This document shows positions 175 to 22,330 of a DNA stretch of 64,000 nt, in pieces (position 1 is the stretch's first letter; each line of letters opens with the position of its first letter). This stretch comes from Salinilacihabitans rarus (lineage in GTDB: Archaea > Halobacteriota > Halobacteria > Halobacteriales > Natrialbaceae). The stretch spans positions 1,302,001 through 1,366,000 of the forward strand of contig NZ_CP100762.1 in NCBI RefSeq assembly GCF_024296665.1, read 5' to 3'. The notes beneath the pieces are model-generated. The model saw only the letters and a program-made list of their open reading frames with translations, ran no database searches and was not told the DNA's origin. A program made the position numbers and the translations under genes.

Positions 175-1137
175 CTAGGGACCCGACGCCGACGAGTTCG
201 ACAGGATCCGTTCGAGCACGGCCGGCCGCTCTACGTACCAGTCCACCGTCTCCTCGATTCCCGCCGAAAACGGATACCGCGGATCGTAGTCGAGGACTCG
301 TCTCGCCCGTCCGATGTCCGCGACGTACCTGCTCACCTCACCCGTTCTGGTCGACTCCACGACGATCTCCGACTCGTTCGACGTCAGGTCGGCTACCCTC
401 CGTGCCAGTTCGATCAGCGACGTTCCCTGCCCGGAGGCGATGTTCAACGTCGTGTCCGCGACTTTGTGATGCCGTTCGATACAGCCGTAGAGCCCATCGA
501 CACAGTCGTCGATGTACGTGAAGTCGAGTACCTTGTTCGCGCCGTAGACGATCAGATCGAGGTCTTCGTGACACCGGGCGACGAACAGGGGGACGACCCG
601 GTCCGCAGCATCGTATCGCCCGTACACGTTCGAGAGTCGCACGATGGTCGTCGTCAGGTCGTAACACTGACCGTACGCCGTAACCATGGATTCGCCGCCG
701 ATCTTGCTCGCCGTGTACGGGCTCTCGCTGGTGTCGGCGTAGGTCGCCGACTCGTCGTAGACGACCCGATCGGTGTTCCCGTACACTTCCCTCGAACTGG
801 CGAAGACGAACTTCGAGATCCCGTTCTCTCGGGCGAACTCGAGCAGGTTGAACGTCATCGTCACGTTCTCCATCGCGAGTTCCGGCCGCTCGACGAGTCG
901 GTGAACCCGTGCGTGCGCTCCGAGGTGGATTATCGCGTCGAACTCCGACGACAGGTCGTCGAGGCCGCCCCTCTCGCGGAGGTCGACGAGTTCGGTCACC
1001 GCGTCGACCTCGTCCGACCAGCGGTTGGGGGTAACGTCGACGCCGGTCACGTCGTAGCCTTCGGCGTGTAACCGTTCGACGAGCGCCGTTCCTATCATTC
1101 CGCTACTTCCGGTGACGAGGATGGATTCGGGAGTCAT
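175..1137 (-). CDS. NAD-dependent epimerase/dehydratase (nucleotide-sugar epimerase family)
   Basis: A 320-residue extended short-chain dehydrogenase. The N-terminus has the Rossmann motif TGSSGMIG (about residues 9-16) that binds NAD(P), and the active-site pair YTASK (Tyr-x3-Lys) lies in the middle, after SSREVYG. Length and layout match UDP-glucose 4-epimerase or dTDP-glucose 4,6-dehydratase relatives, so it most likely changes a nucleotide sugar that feeds the neighbouring glycosyltransferases. It converges on the ABC transporter with one base between the stops. The exact substrate is not predictable. Confidence 0.85.
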   Translation of the reverse strand: MTPESILVTGSSGMIGTALVERLHAEGYDVTGVDVTPNRWSDEVDAVTELVDLRERGGLDDLSSEFDAIIHLGAHARVHRLVERPELAMENVTMTFNLLEFARENGISKFVFASSREVYGNTDRVVYDESATYADTSESPYTASKIGGESMVTAYGQCYDLTTTIVRLSNVYGRYDAADRVVPLFVARCHEDLDLIVYGANKVLDFTYIDDCVDGLYGCIERHHKVADTTLNIASGQGTSLIELARRVADLTSNESEIVVESTRTGEVSRYVADIGRARRVLDYDPRYPFSAGIEETVDWYVERPAVLERILSNSSASGP

Positions 1138-1200: not shown

Positions 1201-2166
1201 TCATCCGTCGGCGTACGGGGCCGCCAACCGTTCGCCGACCGGTCCGTCGAACCGATCGAGGAGCAACTCGTCGAGGTACCCCCGCAACCGCCATCGGGAG
1301 GCGCTGTCGTCGTCGAGGACGACCCGTCCGAGTTGCCGCCACACGGGCGTCCCGTACTCCACGTCGACCAGCAAGCGAAACAGCGAACGAGGGTACGTTT
1401 CCGGGAAATTCTTCCGCCGAAATCGCAGGCTGTTGCGCCCGTACCAGTACGATACGCGCTCGCTCTCCGCCTGCGACGCGTTTATGTGGTACACGAGTGC
1501 CCTGGGGTGATAGACGAGCGTCTCGTCGCGTTTCCACAGTTTCGCCATCACGTCCAGTTCCTCGAACTGTGGATGGCCTTCGTAGTCCGGGTCGAACCCG
1601 CCGAGGTCCTCGATCGCGTCGACGCTGAACGACATGTTCGCTCCGACGAGGAAGTCAGTTCTGACGGGTGCCGACGGGATCCACTTGTAGGTACGTTGCG
1701 TGTGTTCGCCGTACTGGTTGATGAAGTTCTGATTCGTCGGCGAGGTCTCGACGTCGTACTGGAACGCGAGGTCTTCGTCCGTGACCGGAGCGGGCCCGCC
1801 CACGGCGACCGCGGAGTCGTCCCACTCGTATCCGCGTTCGATCCCTTCCAGCCACGTCTCCCTGGGAACGACGTCGTCGTCCAGAAAACAGATGACGTCC
1901 CCGTTCGACAACTCGATCGCGTCGTTTCGCCCTCGCTGTAGGCTGGTGTCCTCTCCCCTCGCGTGGTGACGGAGATCGATCGACCGTCGGCCAAAGCGCG
2001 ACGCGTGCGATTCGACGACGCGTCGCGTCTCCTCGTTGGCGCCGTTGTTGACGACGATGACCTCGTCGGGGCGGGACCGCTGCGAGACCAGACGTCCCAG
2101 CAACCGATCGACGTGTTCGGGCCGATCGTACGTTACCACGGCGACTGTCGTCGTCAGCGACATCAC
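1201..2166 (-). CDS. Glycosyltransferase family 2
   Basis: A 321-residue inverting GT-A enzyme. It begins with a nucleotide-binding strand (VAVVTYDRPEHVDRLL), has a metal-binding FLDDD motif near residue 95, and carries the acceptor-side segment GGFDPDYEGHPQFEELD. No membrane span is evident, so it probably acts on a lipid-linked glycan at the cytoplasmic face. A Shine-Dalgarno-like GGAGGTG sits ten bases before the ATG (2171-2177 on the plus strand), and a TATA-like stretch lies near 2207-2214. The 63-bp gap to the epimerase suggests co-transcription. Donor and acceptor sugars are unknown. Confidence 0.85.
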   Translation of the reverse strand: MMSLTTTVAVVTYDRPEHVDRLLGRLVSQRSRPDEVIVVNNGANEETRRVVESHASRFGRRSIDLRHHARGEDTSLQRGRNDAIELSNGDVICFLDDDVVPRETWLEGIERGYEWDDSAVAVGGPAPVTDEDLAFQYDVETSPTNQNFINQYGEHTQRTYKWIPSAPVRTDFLVGANMSFSVDAIEDLGGFDPDYEGHPQFEELDVMAKLWKRDETLVYHPRALVYHINASQAESERVSYWYGRNSLRFRRKNFPETYPRSLFRLLVDVEYGTPVWRQLGRVVLDDDSASRWRLRGYLDELLLDRFDGPVGERLAAPYADG

Positions 2167-2333: not shown

Positions 2334-3488
2334 TCACGAGCGGGGGTTCGGCCGCTTCCCGTCGGTGGGGCCCGTTCGTCCGGTCCGGTCGACGATCGCC
2401 CGTAAACGTCGGGTCGTTTCATCGACGGTCCGCCGCCACTCGTACCCGCGGGCTCGGATCGCCGACCGCGGGGACCGCTCGATCGGCGCCGTCAACTCGC
2501 GTTCGAGCGCGGTCGCGAACCGCTCCGGGCGGCCGACCGGGACGGTCCGTCCACACCCCTCGACGAGCGACACGAGCTGGTCGAGATCGCTCGTGACGAC
2601 GGGCGTGTCGGTCGCCATCGCCTCGAGGACGGTCCGCGGAACGCCCTCGGAACGGCTCGGGAGTACCAGCACGTCGGCGCTCCGGTAGATGCCCGGCATT
2701 TCGTCGTACGAGCGCTGCCCGTGGAACGCCACGCGGTCGTCGATCGCGAGGTCTCGAGCGAGCGATTCGAGGCGACCCCGAAGCGGGCCGTCGCCACAGA
2801 CGTGAAGTTCGACGTCCGGAACCGCGTCCTCGACCCGGGCGACCGCACGTATCGCGTCCTGTGGCCGTTTGCCGTCGACCAACCGTCCGACGAACAACGC
2901 CACCGGGCCGTCGTGGTCGATCAACTCGCTCTCGGGGCCGTCGGGCGCGAACCGGTCCGCGTCGATCCCGTTCGGAACGACGTCGACCCGACTCGAGACG
3001 CCGACCTCCCGCAGGCGACGTTTCTCGGGCTCCGTGTAACAAAACACCACGTCGGCCCGGTCGAACGTCCACCGGCCGAGCGACTGCAGGTAGAGGTCGA
3101 ACGCCCACTCGGGTGCGTTCTGCGAGTACAGCCCGTGGTTCGTGATCGCCAGCGGAGGGTCCCCGAGCGCGCGCCTCGCCGCGGCCAGGTTCGTCGAGAA
3201 GTACAGGTGCGAGTGAGCGTGAACGACGTCGAACCCCTCTGTGGCCGCCAGGTACCGTGCCACGCCGGGGCTGACGTCGTTTCCGAGCGGCGCGAGGGCC
3301 GGATCGAACCGCACCACCGCGTACCCGTCGCGCTCCTCGATCCGGGGGCGGTCGGGGGCGTGCCGGACGGTGAGGACGGTCACGTCGTGGCCCATCGCCG
3401 CCTGATCGCGGCTCATCGCGTGGACGTGGTACGGACCGCCGCCGCTTACGTCCGGGTAGACCTTCTGGGCGACACGCAGGATCCGCAT
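2334..3488 (-). CDS. Glycosyltransferase family 4
   Basis: A 384-residue retaining GT-B enzyme. The N-terminal domain has the glycine-rich acceptor loop (DVSGGGPYHVHAMS), and the C-terminal domain has VALFVGRLVDGKRP and the donor-binding E-x7-E region, SRSEGVPRTVLEAMA. I chose MRILRVAQ as the start because a strong GAGGAGGT ribosome-binding site lies nine bases upstream; a longer reading from 3515 would swallow that site. It lies 42 bases downstream of the sugar-phosphate transferase, so the two are probably one operon. Likely role: extension of the surface glycan at the cytoplasmic side. Confidence 0.85.
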   Translation of the reverse strand: MRILRVAQKVYPDVSGGGPYHVHAMSRDQAAMGHDVTVLTVRHAPDRPRIEERDGYAVVRFDPALAPLGNDVSPGVARYLAATEGFDVVHAHSHLYFSTNLAAARRALGDPPLAITNHGLYSQNAPEWAFDLYLQSLGRWTFDRADVVFCYTEPEKRRLREVGVSSRVDVVPNGIDADRFAPDGPESELIDHDGPVALFVGRLVDGKRPQDAIRAVARVEDAVPDVELHVCGDGPLRGRLESLARDLAIDDRVAFHGQRSYDEMPGIYRSADVLVLPSRSEGVPRTVLEAMATDTPVVTSDLDQLVSLVEGCGRTVPVGRPERFATALERELTAPIERSPRSAIRARGYEWRRTVDETTRRLRAIVDRTGRTGPTDGKRPNPRS

Positions 3489-3530
3489 CGGCGTGTTACC
3501 TCCTCGAAGTCCCATACGATTCGTCCCGAT

Positions 3531-4964
3531 TCACCCTCGCAAGACGCGGTACACGTCCTCCAGCACCAGCCACAGTTGCCGGATCACGATCTGGAGGTCG
3601 AACCACAGCGACTGTCGCCGGATGTACTCGAGGTCGTAGCGAAGTTTCGCATCCGGGTCGGTGCTCTTCGCGTCGTTGATCTGCGCCAGACCGGTCAGGC
3701 CGGGCTTGACGAACCACCGCTTGCGCCACGTGGGGGCGTCGCACTCGAGCAACTGCTCTTCGTCCACCCACGCGGCTCGCGGCCCGACGACGCTCATCCG
3801 ACCCGCGAGGATCGACCACAACTGCGGAATCTCGTCGAGGTGCGTCCGCCGCAGCGTGTGGCCGACCCGGGTGATGCGGTCGTTCTCCTCGTCGTCGGTC
3901 GGGACCGCGGACTCGTCTTCGGGGACCATCGTCCGGAACTTGTACACGCGGAAGGTGCCCCCGAACCCCGCCGTCCGCTCCTGCCCGTACAGCACCGGTC
4001 CCGGGCTGTCGAGTTTGATCGCGACCGCGATAGCCAGCACCAGCGGCGCGAGCGCCACCAGACCGACCGCGGCGAACGTCACGTCGAAGACGCGCTTGAA
4101 CAGGTGATCGATCGGGTCCCACGGTTCGAGGTCCACGTCCACCAGTTCGCCGACGTCGTCCGCCGAAACCAACACGTTGTCGGCGTACTCCCGGTGTACT
4201 TTCGCGTCCACGCCGTGCTCGTGACACGCCTCCAGCGCGCCGAAGAACTCCGCGCGGTCGGCACGCCGGAAGGCCAACACGACGGTGTCGACGTCGTACT
4301 TCACGAGGACGTCCCTGAGCCGCGATAACCCTCCGAGACGGTGCAGGACGCCCTCGTCGCGCGTCGCGGCCGTCTCGCCGACGTCGTCGCCGGCGGTCGT
4401 CCCGCCGTCCGCGGCGGGTTCGACCGGTCCGCGGTCGACGTCGGCGATCGACGGACAGAGGTAGCCGAGAAGCGGCGTCCCGACCTCCGGCGCGATCCGT
4501 TCGATCTGTTCGCGGTCGTCGCCGACGACCAGCGTTCTCCCGGGGTCGCCGGTCGGTCGGCGAATCCACACGAACCACGCGGGAATCGTGATCGCCAGTA
4601 GCCCGACGGCCATCACGAGCGTCGCTCGCGGCAGGCGGTAAGACCACTCGAAGTAACCCAGCGTCGCGAGCGCGAGTCCGCCGATGAGCACGCGTTTTTG
4701 CGCGAGAAATACGGTGTCGAGGATGCGTCGCGGGTGGGGCTTGTAGAGCGGAACGAGACTTCCCGCGACCGCGAGCACGCTCAGCGCGAGCGCCCAGTAC
4801 AGCGATTCGCCGCTCAACACCGTCACGTCGAGGCGGTTGAACAGCGGCACGTACGTCGTAAACAGCGACTGGGAGAGGCGGTGGTTCGCGACCGTAACCG
4901 CTCCGACGGTCAGTACGACGACTCCGAGGACGCTCACCGCGCGGTACCGCCAACCCGTGACCAT
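3531..4964 (-). CDS. Polyprenyl-phosphate sugar-1-phosphate transferase (exopolysaccharide initiating enzyme)
   Basis: A 477-residue enzyme of the bacterial sugar transferase family (WbaP/EpsL-like). Four to five hydrophobic segments come first, then a soluble Rossmann-like stretch, another membrane helix near FDVTFAAVGLVALAPLVL, and the conserved catalytic tail with YKFRTM, LRRTHLDEIPQLWS and SVVGPRAAW. Members move a sugar-phosphate from a nucleotide sugar to a polyprenyl or dolichyl phosphate, the first step of glycan assembly. A TATA-like element lies about 28 bases before the ATG, so the message is probably leaderless. Sugar specificity is not known. Confidence 0.88.
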   Translation of the reverse strand: MVTGWRYRAVSVLGVVVLTVGAVTVANHRLSQSLFTTYVPLFNRLDVTVLSGESLYWALALSVLAVAGSLVPLYKPHPRRILDTVFLAQKRVLIGGLALATLGYFEWSYRLPRATLVMAVGLLAITIPAWFVWIRRPTGDPGRTLVVGDDREQIERIAPEVGTPLLGYLCPSIADVDRGPVEPAADGGTTAGDDVGETAATRDEGVLHRLGGLSRLRDVLVKYDVDTVVLAFRRADRAEFFGALEACHEHGVDAKVHREYADNVLVSADDVGELVDVDLEPWDPIDHLFKRVFDVTFAAVGLVALAPLVLAIAVAIKLDSPGPVLYGQERTAGFGGTFRVYKFRTMVPEDESAVPTDDEENDRITRVGHTLRRTHLDEIPQLWSILAGRMSVVGPRAAWVDEEQLLECDAPTWRKRWFVKPGLTGLAQINDAKSTDPDAKLRYDLEYIRRQSLWFDLQIVIRQLWLVLEDVYRVLRG

Positions 4965-5128: not shown

Positions 5129-7576
5129 TCAGTCCAGTCGTACTTCCGACCCGTCTTCGACCGCCGCCGTCGAGACGCGGACCTCCCGGTCCCCGACGGA
5201 GTAGTTGCCGGGGTACGGCACCGTCACTTCCAGCCGGCCGTCGTCTCCGACGGTCACGTCCCGTTCGTACGCGATCGTCTCTCCCGAGACCGTCACCTCG
5301 GTCTCGACCGGCACCGTCTCTCCCGGTTCGCCCGGCGCGGTGATCGTCGCTCCCGGCACGACGGCGAAGGCCGTCACCTCCTCGTCCACGTACACCGCCC
5401 GGTAGTGTTCGAGCGCCTCGCCGCCGTCCCCGCCAGCGCCGAGGTCGTCGTGGAGTCGCGCCTGGGTGCTGTCGGCCGGGTACTCGGCCTCCACCTCGGT
5501 CAGGACGACGTACCCCACGTCGCTGCGGTCGAACTCCTCGTACCAGCCGTCCGGGTCGTCGCCGGTCCGGAACGCGTCGAAATTGTCGAAGGCGTACTCG
5601 TAGTCGTCCGCTTCTCCGCTGACGAAGTAGTTGTACATCCGGTTGTGTCCCCACACGCTCAACACGAAGTTCTCCGGGTACTCGCGGTCGACGGCGTCGG
5701 CGTCTTCGTCGATGGCCGTCGCGGCGCCGAACTCGGCGTCCCCGTGTGCCGTCTGACCGACCAGAGACGGCGCGTAGATCAGGCTCACCCCGCAGACCAG
5801 CAGCGCGATCCAGACCAGCGCGAAGAGCGTGCGACGGTCCCGCGGAACGACGATGCTCGGTTCGGGTTCGCCGCCGTTGGCCGCGACGGCCCGAGTCGTC
5901 GCGCTCCGTCCGGCCCCTCCGTCGCCCGCCGACCTGAACGGCGCGGGCTTCCGGGCGAGACCCGCCCACGCCAGCAGGTAGACGAACCCGAATCCGCCGA
6001 GCACCGAGAGCGGGATCGTTAGCTGGCCCGCGAACCGGCCCTGGATCGCCGCGAGCGCGAGCCAGAAGACGACGTACACGGAGAGCAACAGCCACGCGGG
6101 CTCGTAGCGGCGGTACGTCGCCCAGCACGCCCACCCGAGGACCAGCAGCGCCACGTAGAAGCTGAGACCGATCTGCGACACGGGGCCGAACACCACCGCG
6201 TCGTCCAGACCGAACAACGACGCCGTCTCCGTGATGTCCTCCCTTGCGACCAGATCGACGGCTCGGTCGGAGAGCCTCGCCCACTCGGCCGGGGCGAGAC
6301 CCCGGAACGCGACGAGGCCGCCCGCGACCAGAATCGGTTCGAGTCCGACGAGGGCGGCCGCGGGCCACTCCCGACGACGCCACAGTTCCCCGAGTCCGAC
6401 GACGGCCACCGCTCCGAGCGCGACGAGCAGCGAGACGCGGGGGACGAACGCGCCGTGCCAGCCCCAGCGAACGTGCAAGAACGCGGTGAGCGCCGCGCTC
6501 AGGCCCAGCCCGACCAAGATCGGCGCGTTCGCCGGTGCGGGCGGGAGGTCCGCGCGAACGTCGAGGGCGACCTTCGTTCCGACGTACGCCGCCGCGGGGA
6601 CGAGCATCAGTATCGACCCGCCCCAGGCGAGGACCGAGAACGCGAGGGCGACCCCCAGTACGACGGTCGCGACCCGCGTCCACGGGCGTCGGAGGTGCTC
6701 GCGGATCGCCCGCCGCGTTGCGGAACGGGCGATCCGCCGTCGCCGCAGGTCGACGGCCAACCAGGCGAGCGTCGTCAGCGTGACCCCGAGCCAGAAGTAC
6801 TGGTGTAACCGGTGTTCGAGGAAGCCGATGCCGGAGTACACGGCGTGAACCGGCGCGAGTGCGAGGAGGACGACCGACGCCACCCCGACTCGTACGTCGT
6901 CCGCGACGACGACGGCGAGCCAGTAGACGACGATCCCCAGCGCGACCGCCCCGACGACGGGCAGCCACGCGGCGATCGTCTCCGCCGCCCACTGGTCGCC
7001 GCCCAGCAACTCCGCGAGGAACCAGTTCGAAGCGTGGGTTAGCGGCCGCCTGCTCGCCGCTCCCTCCGGCATCCGCGCGACGACCGCGACGTCGGTGATC
7101 CCGTCGGACTCCGCGAGCAGCGCCTCCAGCCAGTAGCGGTAGTGGTACGGATCGTTTCCCGGCGAGACGACGCGGCCGTCGCGGAACACCGACCGGTAGT
7201 TCAGGATCCGCATCCCGAACAGGAAGACGAGCGCGCCGGCGAGGGCCGCGGCGGCGCGGGGGTCGAACGCGACCGGGAACGAGAGGTCGACTCCCGAACT
7301 CGCGGCGTCTTCGACGGCGATCGGTTCGTCGGCGAGGCCGGCCCGAACCCCCTCTCTACTGGCGATACGGTACTCGCCGTCGACCTTCGCGACGATTCCG
7401 CGAGAGACGAGTTCGCCGAAGGTTCCCGAGTCGAGCGACAGGTCGTCGAACGTCCAGGTGTCGTGCTCGGCGTCGACTTCGAGCACGGTTTCGATCACCC
7501 GCTCCCCGTCGGGATACTCTTCACAGAAGGACGTCACCGCGTCGGCGACCGAAGGCGGGTCCCGGTCGTCGCCCAT
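5129..7576 (-). CDS. STT3/AglB-like membrane protein with altered WWDYG motif
   Basis: An 815-residue protein, using the MGDDRDPP start, which is preceded by a G-rich site; a start 14 codons earlier is possible. Residues 1-80 look like a small winged-helix fold, followed by about a dozen hydrophobic helices (residues 107-600) and a soluble C-terminal domain. The first membrane helix is followed by NDPYHYRYW (141-149), matching the catalytic first-loop DxD-type motif of oligosaccharyltransferases, and by EHRLHQYFW (254-262), resembling the second-loop motif. Where STT3 proteins have WWDYG, this one has SVWGHNRMYN (640-649). It probably handles a lipid-linked glycan, but classical sequon glycosylation is uncertain. 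Confidence 0.72.
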   Translation of the reverse strand: MGDDRDPPSVADAVTSFCEEYPDGERVIETVLEVDAEHDTWTFDDLSLDSGTFGELVSRGIVAKVDGEYRIASREGVRAGLADEPIAVEDAASSGVDLSFPVAFDPRAAAALAGALVFLFGMRILNYRSVFRDGRVVSPGNDPYHYRYWLEALLAESDGITDVAVVARMPEGAASRRPLTHASNWFLAELLGGDQWAAETIAAWLPVVGAVALGIVVYWLAVVVADDVRVGVASVVLLALAPVHAVYSGIGFLEHRLHQYFWLGVTLTTLAWLAVDLRRRRIARSATRRAIREHLRRPWTRVATVVLGVALAFSVLAWGGSILMLVPAAAYVGTKVALDVRADLPPAPANAPILVGLGLSAALTAFLHVRWGWHGAFVPRVSLLVALGAVAVVGLGELWRRREWPAAALVGLEPILVAGGLVAFRGLAPAEWARLSDRAVDLVAREDITETASLFGLDDAVVFGPVSQIGLSFYVALLVLGWACWATYRRYEPAWLLLSVYVVFWLALAAIQGRFAGQLTIPLSVLGGFGFVYLLAWAGLARKPAPFRSAGDGGAGRSATTRAVAANGGEPEPSIVVPRDRRTLFALVWIALLVCGVSLIYAPSLVGQTAHGDAEFGAATAIDEDADAVDREYPENFVLSVWGHNRMYNYFVSGEADDYEYAFDNFDAFRTGDDPDGWYEEFDRSDVGYVVLTEVEAEYPADSTQARLHDDLGAGGDGGEALEHYRAVYVDEEVTAFAVVPGATITAPGEPGETVPVETEVTVSGETIAYERDVTVGDDGRLEVTVPYPGNYSVGDREVRVSTAAVEDGSEVRLD

Positions 7577-7874
7577 CAGTCGCCCCCCGTCCGTGACCGG
7601 TCTCGATGCGGACTCCACCGCGTTCGACCCGCGGACGGACCGCGACGCGGACGGCTACCCGCGACGACCGGTCCGCGATCGACGCGACGGCGAACGGTCG
7701 GATCCCGTGATCGATTTCGAGCCCTCATGAGACATCTTTCGGGGGCCGTTCCCGACGCGAGGGTATTGTTTGACCCCACCTACAGCCGTGGCTCCCGATT
7801 TCAGAACGACGTTACTCACGGGAGCGACGGACCCTGCGACCCGGAGGCGGCGACGGGGCGCGAAACGCGAGAGT

Positions 7875-8783
7875 TCACGGATCGAATCGTCGGGTCGCTC
7901 GCGATCTGACGTACGACGGAACGTAGCTCAGTTGTAGTTTCCCCTTTTCGAACAGGAACTGGAAGACCGATCGCGCCCGTCGGGGATCCGCCATCACCGC
8001 TTTGTGAAACGCCTTGGCTGCGTTCGATAACTCGCGGCGCCGCACGTAGGACTTGCCCAGAACGTACCGATACTGGGCGCGATACGAGGACGGTAACTCG
8101 TCACGGAACTCCGCGAGGAACGCGGTCAGTCCGGCGATCTTTTCGGCATCGTTTCCGGTGAGTTGTCCGTCGTGTCTGTGGTATCGGTACAGCGGGTCGT
8201 CGATTCCGACCAGACGGTACCCCCGGAGGAGTCGTATCCAGAGTGCGACGTCGTCCATGTACCCGATCCGTTCGTCGAACGATCCCACGTCGGCGAGTGC
8301 AGACGCCCGTACCGTCAGCCCGCCCGTTCTCGCCTCGGTCTCGACCGACGGTCCGAGGTCGGCGGGCGAGGTCATCGCGGCGGCCGCGCCGTGTACGTCG
8401 ACCGCTTTACCGTCCCGGCAGACTTCGAGAGCGACGAAGGTGCCCGCACACCGTCCGGATTCCGATCGGAGCGTTTCTATCGACCGCTCCAGAAACGTCG
8501 GTTTCAACTCGTCGTCGGAATCGAGAAACGAGACGAACTCCCCTTCGGCGGCGTCTATCCCGCTATTTCGCGCGGCCGAGGGGCCTCGATTGGTCTCGTG
8601 CGAGAGGAGCGTGACCCTGTCGTCCGCGTAGTCGTCGACGACTGCATCGGTTTCGTCGGTCGATCCGTCGTCCACGACGACGAGTTCGAAGTCCCGAAAC
8701 GTTTGCTCGAGCACGCTGTCGATCGCCCGGGGGAGGACCGCGGCCCGGTTGTACGTGGGAACGACGACGCTCGCGGTCGTCAT
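7875..8783 (-). CDS. Glycosyltransferase family 2 with helical C-terminal tail
   Basis: A 302-residue GT-A enzyme. The N-terminal domain shows SVVVPTYNRAAVLPRAIDSVLEQ and VVDDGSTDET, and the metal-binding motif is FLDSDDE near residue 90. After residue 215 the sequence becomes a helix-rich tail (YVLGKSYVRRRELSNAAKAF) that resembles a TPR repeat. The same layout recurs in the two genes at 12331-14186, so these three are paralogues. It lies 70 bases downstream of the FkbM methyltransferase, suggesting a shared transcript. Likely role: adding a sugar to the surface glycan. Confidence 0.85.
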   Translation of the reverse strand: MTTASVVVPTYNRAAVLPRAIDSVLEQTFRDFELVVVDDGSTDETDAVVDDYADDRVTLLSHETNRGPSAARNSGIDAAEGEFVSFLDSDDELKPTFLERSIETLRSESGRCAGTFVALEVCRDGKAVDVHGAAAAMTSPADLGPSVETEARTGGLTVRASALADVGSFDERIGYMDDVALWIRLLRGYRLVGIDDPLYRYHRHDGQLTGNDAEKIAGLTAFLAEFRDELPSSYRAQYRYVLGKSYVRRRELSNAAKAFHKAVMADPRRARSVFQFLFEKGKLQLSYVPSYVRSRATRRFDP

Positions 8784-20731: not shown

Positions 20732-22330
20732 ATGTCAGCACGATCACGGTTCACGTCAGTTCTCCTCGCGGCGATGCTGGTGCTGTCGACGGTGGCGATC
20801 GCCACCCCGGCGGCCGTCGCACAGGAGCAAGACGGAACACAGGCCGTACAGACGCTCGCTGACGGCGAGGAGCTCTACCTCGTCTTCGGCGCGAACCTCG
20901 AGGACATGACACTCGAGGAGTACATCGAAACGCACGCGTTAGGCGAGGTCGACCAGGAGACGTCCGCCGACGTCATCCAGTACCAGGACGTCGACCAGGT
21001 GAACATCAACCAGCAGGGCAACGCCACCTCGATCTCGATCGACAACGGGACGGCAACGGCCGTCCAGGAGGCGAACCAGCGGAACTCGAACTCCCAGGTC
21101 GGCGAGGCCACCGCCGAGAACCGGGCCGGTGACGTCTCGAACACCCTGTTCGAGGACGTCGGCACGGTCTACGTCGTCGTCGGCGACAGCGGCCAGCAGT
21201 TCGAGGGCTGGGGAATCGCCGACAAGAAAGGCGACAAGGCCGAGACGGTCACGCAGGAGGCCCAGGCGACGATCACGCAGTACCAGGAAGTCGAGCAGGC
21301 GAACGTCAACCAGCAGAACACGGCGTTCGCGATCGCCGAGAACGAGAGCGAAGCGACCGCCATCCAGCAGTCCTACCAGTACAACGAGAACCTGCAGGAA
21401 GGCGCCGCGAACGCGACGAACGTCTACCAGACCGACGGCGACGGCGATGGCGACGGTGCCAAGTACAAGAAAGCGCCCGACCACTACCAGATGACCTACG
21501 ACTGGCACGCGGGCGAGCCCGCCAGCGCGGTCCAGTTGGCCGACGCCACAGTCGAGCAGGCCCAGGAGGTCGATCAGGCCAACGTGAACGAACAGACGGC
21601 CGCGGTCGCCATCGCCGTCGGCGAGAACGCGACCGCGACCGCCGTCCAGTTCACCGAACAGAGCAACCTCAACGCGCAACTCGGCACCGCCGAGGCCATC
21701 AACGTGCTCGAGGCCACCTCCGGGATGAACGTCGCGACCGCCGGCGCCGCCGCCGACGAGATCGTCAGTCAGGAGACCGAGACGGTCGGCAGCCACGACA
21801 AGAAGAAAAAGTCCGACGGCGACGGCGACGGCGGCGCCGCCCAGCAGAGCAACGCCGAGGTGACCCAGTACCAGAGCGCCGAACAGCTCAACGTCAACAT
21901 GCAGAGTTCGGCGATCGCCATCGCGACCAACGGCAGCGAGGCGACCGCCGTCCAGCTGGCCTACCAGCAGAACTACAACGCGCAGGTCGGGTACGCCGAC
22001 GCGGTCACCGTCGGCGGATCGAGCCACGGCGGCGTCGTCTACACCGAGGAGACGAGCGTGACCCTCGCCGGCGAGAGCAGCAGCGACTCGCTTGTCACGT
22101 TCGACTTCGCGGGCGAGAACTACCAGACCAACGACGTCGACCAGCAGGCAAACGCCCAGATCGAGCAGGCCCAGTTCGTCGCCCAGGAGAACTTCAACGA
22201 ACAGCAGGGTGCCGTCGCCGTCGCGGACGGCGAGGGAGAGACCGCCAGCGCGGTCCAGTTGAGCATGCAGGAGAACGAGAATCTGCAGTACGCCGCCGTC
22301 GGCGCCGTGACCGTGCCGGCTACCCCGTAA
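20732..22330 (+). CDS. Secreted protein with five curlin-like Gln/Asn/Ala-rich repeats
   Basis: A 532-residue protein with a Sec signal peptide (residues 1-30, hydrophobic core LLAAMLVLSTVAIATPAAVA). After an acidic stretch come five imperfect repeats at about 78-130, 177-230, 270-325, 373-427 and 472-528, spaced 93-103 residues apart. Each has a V-x-Q-x-Q-x-V-x-Q-x-N-x-N-x-Q unit, then an AIA-rich strand, ATA-x-Q, and x-Q-x-N-x-N-x-Q. Regular Gln/Asn ladders with small residues resemble curli CsgA repeats and beta-solenoid amyloids. Linkers are rich in Asp, Gly and Lys. There is no C-terminal anchor. A T-run terminator follows. Function unknown; an extracellular fibre or matrix is the best guess. 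Confidence 0.7.
   Translation: MSARSRFTSVLLAAMLVLSTVAIATPAAVAQEQDGTQAVQTLADGEELYLVFGANLEDMTLEEYIETHALGEVDQETSADVIQYQDVDQVNINQQGNATSISIDNGTATAVQEANQRNSNSQVGEATAENRAGDVSNTLFEDVGTVYVVVGDSGQQFEGWGIADKKGDKAETVTQEAQATITQYQEVEQANVNQQNTAFAIAENESEATAIQQSYQYNENLQEGAANATNVYQTDGDGDGDGAKYKKAPDHYQMTYDWHAGEPASAVQLADATVEQAQEVDQANVNEQTAAVAIAVGENATATAVQFTEQSNLNAQLGTAEAINVLEATSGMNVATAGAAADEIVSQETETVGSHDKKKKSDGDGDGGAAQQSNAEVTQYQSAEQLNVNMQSSAIAIATNGSEATAVQLAYQQNYNAQVGYADAVTVGGSSHGGVVYTEETSVTLAGESSSDSLVTFDFAGENYQTNDVDQQANAQIEQAQFVAQENFNEQQGAVAVADGEGETASAVQLSMQENENLQYAAVGAVTVPATP

Follow-up and report, generated by a model that had tools for sequence, protein, structure and literature searches.

Asparagine-linked glycosylation is taught as requiring the sequon N-X-S/T and one STT3-type enzyme that reads it through the WWDYG motif, the element that recognizes the sequon in STT3 and PglB. 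What a protein of this kind might do when WWDYG is replaced is the question raised by an ORF in a 64,000-nt stretch of the Salinilacihabitans rarus genome (the window). The ORF, at 5129..7576 on the minus strand with an ATG at 7576, encodes an AglB/STT3-like GT-C protein of 815 aa, a member of a family here called STT3v. A GTG start at 7618 is also open and would give 829 aa (5129-7618, minus strand); the ATG at 7576, used in the first-pass annotation of the window, is the start conserved across the family. That annotation had noted the loop motifs NDPYHYRYW and EHRLHQYFW, with SVWGHNRMYN in place of WWDYG, all of which were found in the ORF, and had suggested transfer of glycan to another acceptor, such as a different protein motif or a lipid.

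Sequence features of the window protein, all on the minus strand, were compared among 55 aligned STT3v members. The EL1 motif NDPYHYRYW (N141-W149, 7130..7156) contains the catalytic Asp, D142, found in 55/55. In the EL2 motif EHRLHQYFW (E254-W262, 6791..6817), H255 is likewise present in 55/55, and position 254 is acidic in 54/55 (D in 33, E in 21 and H in 1). The EL5 region around ITETA (6218..6241), counterpart of TIxE, carries E450 in 54/55. The counterpart of WWDYG, V638-LSVWGHNRMYNYF (5621..5665), has W642 in 54/55 and R646 and N649 in 55/55; R514 is invariant as well. Pfam matched the protein only at the C-terminal AglB_L1 peripheral domain (5204..5353; PF18079, 2.5e-6), and the model TIGR04154 (archaeo_STT3) gave 126.8 bits, below its cut-off of 450, with 96 to 178 bits for seven further members. 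A sequence search of the PDB with the protein gave no match, and a WWDYG elsewhere in it was looked for and not found.

The replacement is a property of the whole family. WWDYG is present in 0/63 STT3v members and in 44/44 canonical AglB loci, whereas a motif of the type VLSx(W/M)xxNRxxN occurs in 63/63 STT3v members; judged from this sharing among relatives, the altered motif is neither a chance change nor a sequencing error. The site reads VLSxWGxNRMYN, with Gly in the place of the Asp of WWDYG in 44/55. In a profile-profile alignment of 683 columns (E 2.1e-36) between STT3v and 15 canonical haloarchaeal AglBs, VLS-V-W-G-H-N lay opposite VLS-W-W-D-Y-G, D142 opposite the EL1 Asp, EHR opposite DHH and ITE opposite TIxE, while the DK motif, i.e. 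the canonical YVM(V/I)D...K region after WWDYG, fell opposite a gap. Because both WWDYG and the DK motif are missing, the STT3v proteins are classed on their motifs as AglB-like and not as AglB. Two forms of EL2 occur among them, DHH, which is the form of canonical AglB, and EHR (or DHQ) with HQYFW; the latter is found in Natrialbaceae and a few others, and includes the window protein. Several members (L101, L104, L105, L106, L129, L155 and L097) have a C-terminal extension of about 200 aa, which in the three scanned (L101, L106 and L155) is a laminin-G/ConA-like lectin domain that perhaps binds glycan.

Structure prediction was in agreement with a relationship to AglB. In the AlphaFold model (pLDDT 89.9) the window protein is predicted to have a GT-C membrane fold followed by C-terminal domains of the AglB type, and its best match in the PDB was Archaeoglobus fulgidus AglB (3waj; Z 34.3, rmsd 3.8, 591 residues aligned), which outranked ArnT, PMT and further GT-C enzymes with the C-terminal domains included. 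With archaeal AglB (A. fulgidus 3WAJ, 5GMY and 7E9S; haloarchaeal TIGR04154) STT3v shares the GT-C fold over residues 103-815, the EL1, EL2 and EL5 catalytic residues and the AglB_L1 domain, but it lacks WWDYG, has a gap at the DK region and possesses an extra N-terminal domain. Bacterial and eukaryotic STT3/PglB share their fold (Z 26-32) and catalytic logic with STT3v but, unlike it, keep WWDYG and read the sequon. The extra domain (residues 1-82, 7331..7576, minus strand; invariant W41, G54, V57 and Y69) is retained in all 55 aligned members, is missing from canonical AglB and has no Pfam or NCBIfam match. It had been described as winged-helix-like, and was modelled as helix-helix-helix-hairpin-helix (pLDDT 88); a Foldseek search of the PDB with these 82 residues returned nothing at E 0.001, and its top matches, with E values of about 0.4 or higher, were for the most part winged-helix folds. 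For this domain of helices and a beta-hairpin, a winged-helix-like fold is therefore plausible but not proven.

Using the window protein as query (E 1e-10), STT3v was detected in 216 of 391 haloarchaeal genomes, representing 60 of 86 genera; of these 391 genomes, 384 have a canonical AglB above the TIGR04154 cut-off. Beyond the haloarchaea, only partial matches (at most about 106 bits) turned up among 294 genomes sampled across the phylum, whereas full-length STT3v proteins score about 720 bits or more. In a FastTree tree the branch splitting STT3v from canonical AglB had a support of 1.000 and a length of 1.96. A second, canonical aglB, for which the first-pass annotation had proposed a search, is present in the window genome (L002:7932-10805, 844 bits with TIGR04154) about 140 kb from the STT3v gene; its product contains WWDYG and carries YGVLSWWDYGHLIT. 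A search of that genome for a further copy of STT3v found none. Two genomes with STT3v, G118 (L125; listed as 100% complete) and G381, have only weak canonical AglB matches, under the cut-off. In one genus (g20; G204, G214, G215 and G326), canonical AglB matches are unusually weak (about 1e-128) and number three in each genome, which suggests a split or diverged aglB. Automatic annotation labels some STT3v members 'STT3 domain-containing protein'; as far as the searched literature shows, these genes are known as sequences but uncharacterised. Neither a WWDYG-less haloarchaeal relative of AglB nor a proven N-glycosylating enzyme with the same variation was found in the literature searched.

The genes around STT3v bear on its donor. 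Polyprenyl glycosylphosphotransferases make lipid-diphosphate sugars, and the next gene downstream of STT3v in the window (3531..4964; PF02397, TIGR03025) encodes such an enzyme, predicted to start the lipid-PP-linked glycan. It is followed by genes assigned by domain match to a GT4-type glycosyltransferase (2334..3515), a GT2-type glycosyltransferase (1201..2166) and an NAD-dependent sugar epimerase/dehydratase (175..1137), and a further GT2-type glycosyltransferase gene (7875..8783) lies upstream, all on the minus strand. In neighbourhoods whose gene calling was approximate (two window genes were placed on the wrong strand, and the STT3v locus L132 was without a called gene), the glycosylphosphotransferase family was found in 25/49 STT3v loci, DUF4330 proteins in 16/49 and BacA/UppP-type polyprenyl-PP phosphatases in 8/49, each against 0/13 canonical AglB loci. 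DUF4330 proteins recur as STT3v neighbours together with a small membrane protein that Pfam does not match and, in many cases, a BacA/UppP phosphatase (L086, L101, L103, L108 and L109). Among the 391 genomes, 202 contain both STT3v and PF02397, 14 only STT3v, 39 only PF02397 and 136 neither; thus PF02397 is present in 202/216 genomes with STT3v and 39/175 without it, an odds ratio of 50 uncorrected for ancestry. Since STT3v co-occurs with the polyprenyl glycosylphosphotransferase, its donor is probably a dolichol-diphosphate (Dol-PP)-linked glycan.

The acceptor was approached through the mature ends of S-layer proteins. Ninety S-layer-type genes were collected as NF041335 matches, that of genome G093 being taken from the genome's TIGR04216 matches; 60 were selected for STT3v status and genus with their sequences still unseen, and 30 were taken as the search returned them. 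A signal was present in 89/90, and 86 could be anchored and were counted, L187 (no signal) and L198, L200 and L252 (no anchor) being dropped and L255, which was mis-anchored, counting as a negative. The mature end was assumed from the alanine run of the signal and Asn was scored in the first two residues after it, by a rule fixed after the first 70 genes had been seen. Asn at these positions was found in 26/34 proteins from genomes with STT3v and 8/52 from genomes without it (Fisher 1.7e-8, ancestry ignored), and Asn without a sequon in 16/34 and 3/52, respectively (Fisher 9.5e-6, ancestry ignored); of the 26 sites, 16 lack the sequon and 10 have it. At mature positions 3-9 the frequency of Asn did not differ between the two sets. 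In the nine genera with both kinds of genome, Asn occurred in 13/18 against 2/24 (same-genus permutation p 5e-4, which corrects only partly for ancestry) and Asn without a sequon in 9/18 against 0/24. For the 20 genes fetched after the rule had been set, the figures were 9/12 with STT3v and 1/7 without.

A further 20 S-layer-like genes from STT3v-containing genomes, which were weaker TIGR04216 matches, half of them from Natrialbaceae relatives of the window and without matched STT3v-free controls, had the N-terminal Asn in only 6; pooled with the others they give 32/54 against 8/52 (p 3e-6). The Asn was absent from all ten S-layer-like genes of six Natrialbaceae genomes with EHR-type STT3v and from the S-layer-like proteins of the window's own genome, and when scored by eye according to EL2 type it was found in 13/20 for DHH and 2/11 for the others. 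Most EHR-type genomes lack this Asn, so that the N-terminal Asn reading is supported for family members of the DHH subtype and not for the subtype of the window. The window also encodes, at 20732-22330 on the plus strand near the glycosylation cluster, a secreted-looking protein of 532 aa with an S-layer-like signal start, MSARSRFTSVLLAAMLVLS, which is a possible surface substrate.

S-layer genes are also linked physically to STT3v, lying within 6 kb of it in several lineages (G018, G353, G232, G011, G103, G241 and G267). In the Halobacterium-like G018 the S-layer gene is about 3 kb from STT3v and is followed by glmS, glmU and a glycosylphosphotransferase gene, and the mature end of its product, ANADQ, has kept the Asn and lost the Ser; the gap is about 4 kb in G353, and in G232 (L099) STT3v is accompanied by two S-layer-type genes and is probably plasmid-borne. 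A small HMM found S-layer signals at 7/54 STT3v loci, 0/13 AglB loci and 0/20 other loci, figures that are illustrative only, since several of its ten training signals had come from loci later counted. In G067, STT3v fragments (C1:214037-214499; L149 and L150) are flanked on both sides by complete S-layer glycoprotein genes (locus L154, C1:204000-223900), about 50 kb from the full STT3v gene, and represent a decayed or duplicated copy.

Since the catalytic residues are kept, WWDYG is replaced, canonical AglB coexists and sequon-less N-terminal Asn tracks the family, an acceptor specificity different from that of canonical AglB is well supported. We propose, with a probability of about 0.55, that STT3v proteins are active AglB-like oligosaccharyltransferases working beside canonical AglB with a Dol-PP donor, without reading Ser/Thr and mostly on an Asn of the S-layer. 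The donor would be a dolichol-diphosphate-linked glycan started by the glycosylphosphotransferase, canonical AglB instead using dolichol-monophosphate glycans, and the acceptor would be picked without reading Ser/Thr at +2. For the DHH subtype, which makes up most of the family, the acceptor would be an Asn that is residue 1 or 2 of the mature S-layer glycoprotein; for the EHR subtype of the window the donor logic would be unchanged and the acceptor probably shifted. Within this proposal, the most likely function is that of an additional oligosaccharyltransferase which takes its glycan from Dol-PP and does not require Ser/Thr, and the S-layer N-terminus is probably the target in most of the family. 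The 39 genomes with the glycosylphosphotransferase but no STT3v, and the 14 with the reverse, count against it. The first-pass suggestion of a different acceptor, which named no particular candidate, is partly supported, and of its two options, a protein motif or a lipid, the data favour a sequon-less protein Asn for the DHH subtype only.

The alternative that survives best, and which we nevertheless consider unlikely, is that STT3v ligates or transfers exopolysaccharide or some other polymer of the surface, moving a Dol-PP-linked chain to a lipid, glycan or capsule anchor. It would account for the neighbouring glycosyltransferases, for the TIGR03025 match of the initiating enzyme, which is of exopolysaccharide type, and for the lack of a link to N-terminal Asn in the EHR subtype, and aepG of Haloarcula hispanica, located in the aglB cluster, affects exopolysaccharide and not S-layer N-glycans according to the extract consulted of PMC9943897. 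However, the closest structural match is an AglB, which glycosylates protein, ahead of ArnT and PMT, and this alternative predicts neither Asn at one specific N-terminal position nor linkage to S-layer genes. Still less probable is a redundant AglB acting on N-X-S/T from a Dol-PP donor, with another residue holding the Ser/Thr: the 10 N-terminal sites that do have a sequon and the retention of the second Trp of the motif in 54/55 members are consistent with it, but the motif Asp is changed in nearly all, the different residues R646 and N649 are invariant, the 16 other sites lack a sequon and the DK-motif region faces an alignment gap. That STT3v performs an unassigned step of haloarchaeal O-glycosylation, the enzymes of which are called elusive in the consulted part of PMC8241124, appears very improbable, as the S-layer signal concerns Asn at one position and short O-linked disaccharides would need no Dol-PP repeating-unit pathway. 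A catalytically dead relative with a regulatory role, as the family-wide conservation of the N-terminal domain and the often regulatory nature of winged-helix folds might suggest, is hardly credible, given that R514 and the catalytic residues Asp, His and Glu are invariant or, among the latter, almost so.

The preferred reading, a sequon-independent oligosaccharyltransferase, has a natural point of contact in Halobacterium salinarum, the prokaryote in which a glycoprotein was first recognized. The Halobacterium-like genus in the census (g29) contains STT3v in 4 of 13 genomes, H. salinarum not being among them, and what we take to be the N-terminus of the H. salinarum S-layer protein was matched in 4/4 of these genomes and in 1/9 of the others. 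STT3v is predicted to be present in H. salinarum, where, as a guess from gene numbering, it may lie between the yvrO ABC transporter gene and glmS. In the extracts consulted, yvrO is VNG0002G, between VNG0001H and VNG0003C; VNG0005H and VNG0006G were not mentioned in the literature searched. According to the excerpted review, the S-layer protein of H. salinarum bears a repeating-unit glycan at Asn-2, built on a Dol-PP carrier and sensitive to bacitracin, and glycosylation of this site persists after the Ser is changed. A single oligosaccharyltransferase gene had been identified in the species, leaving the Asn-2 enzyme unexplained there, and the transferase has been looked for and presumed absent since there was but one aglB (extracts of PMC4335974 and the review). 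STT3v would share with the Asn-2 system a sequon-independent N-terminal Asn and a Dol-PP carrier, the latter as suggested by its genetic association with the glycosylphosphotransferase, and the sequon-less Asn in STT3v genomes fits the Asn-2 glycan.

N-glycosylation independent of AglB does exist in haloarchaea, in the Agl15 pathway of Haloferax volcanii (PMC8241124, in the part consulted). STT3v was considered as the oligosaccharyltransferase of that pathway and rejected, there being no STT3v match in genus g43, which has the best AglB and S-layer matches and is probably Haloferax; H. volcanii likewise has no PF02397 match. Agl23 of H. hispanica was also considered, and is described in the extract consulted as a putative flippase.

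The fuller claim, that STT3v is the missing sequon-independent oligosaccharyltransferase that glycosylates the S-layer glycoprotein at its N-terminal Asn with a repeating glycan carried on Dol-PP, which would solve the Asn-2 problem of Halobacterium, and that it has been re-aimed in Natrialbaceae, is put forward tentatively, at a little short of even odds. STT3v may nonetheless be regarded as a concrete candidate for a decades-old puzzle at the tip of the S-layer protein, in which R646, N649 and the W-G-x-N-R motif may select Asn by another route. If this is true, a sequon-independent enzyme would give protein glycosylation a new tool.
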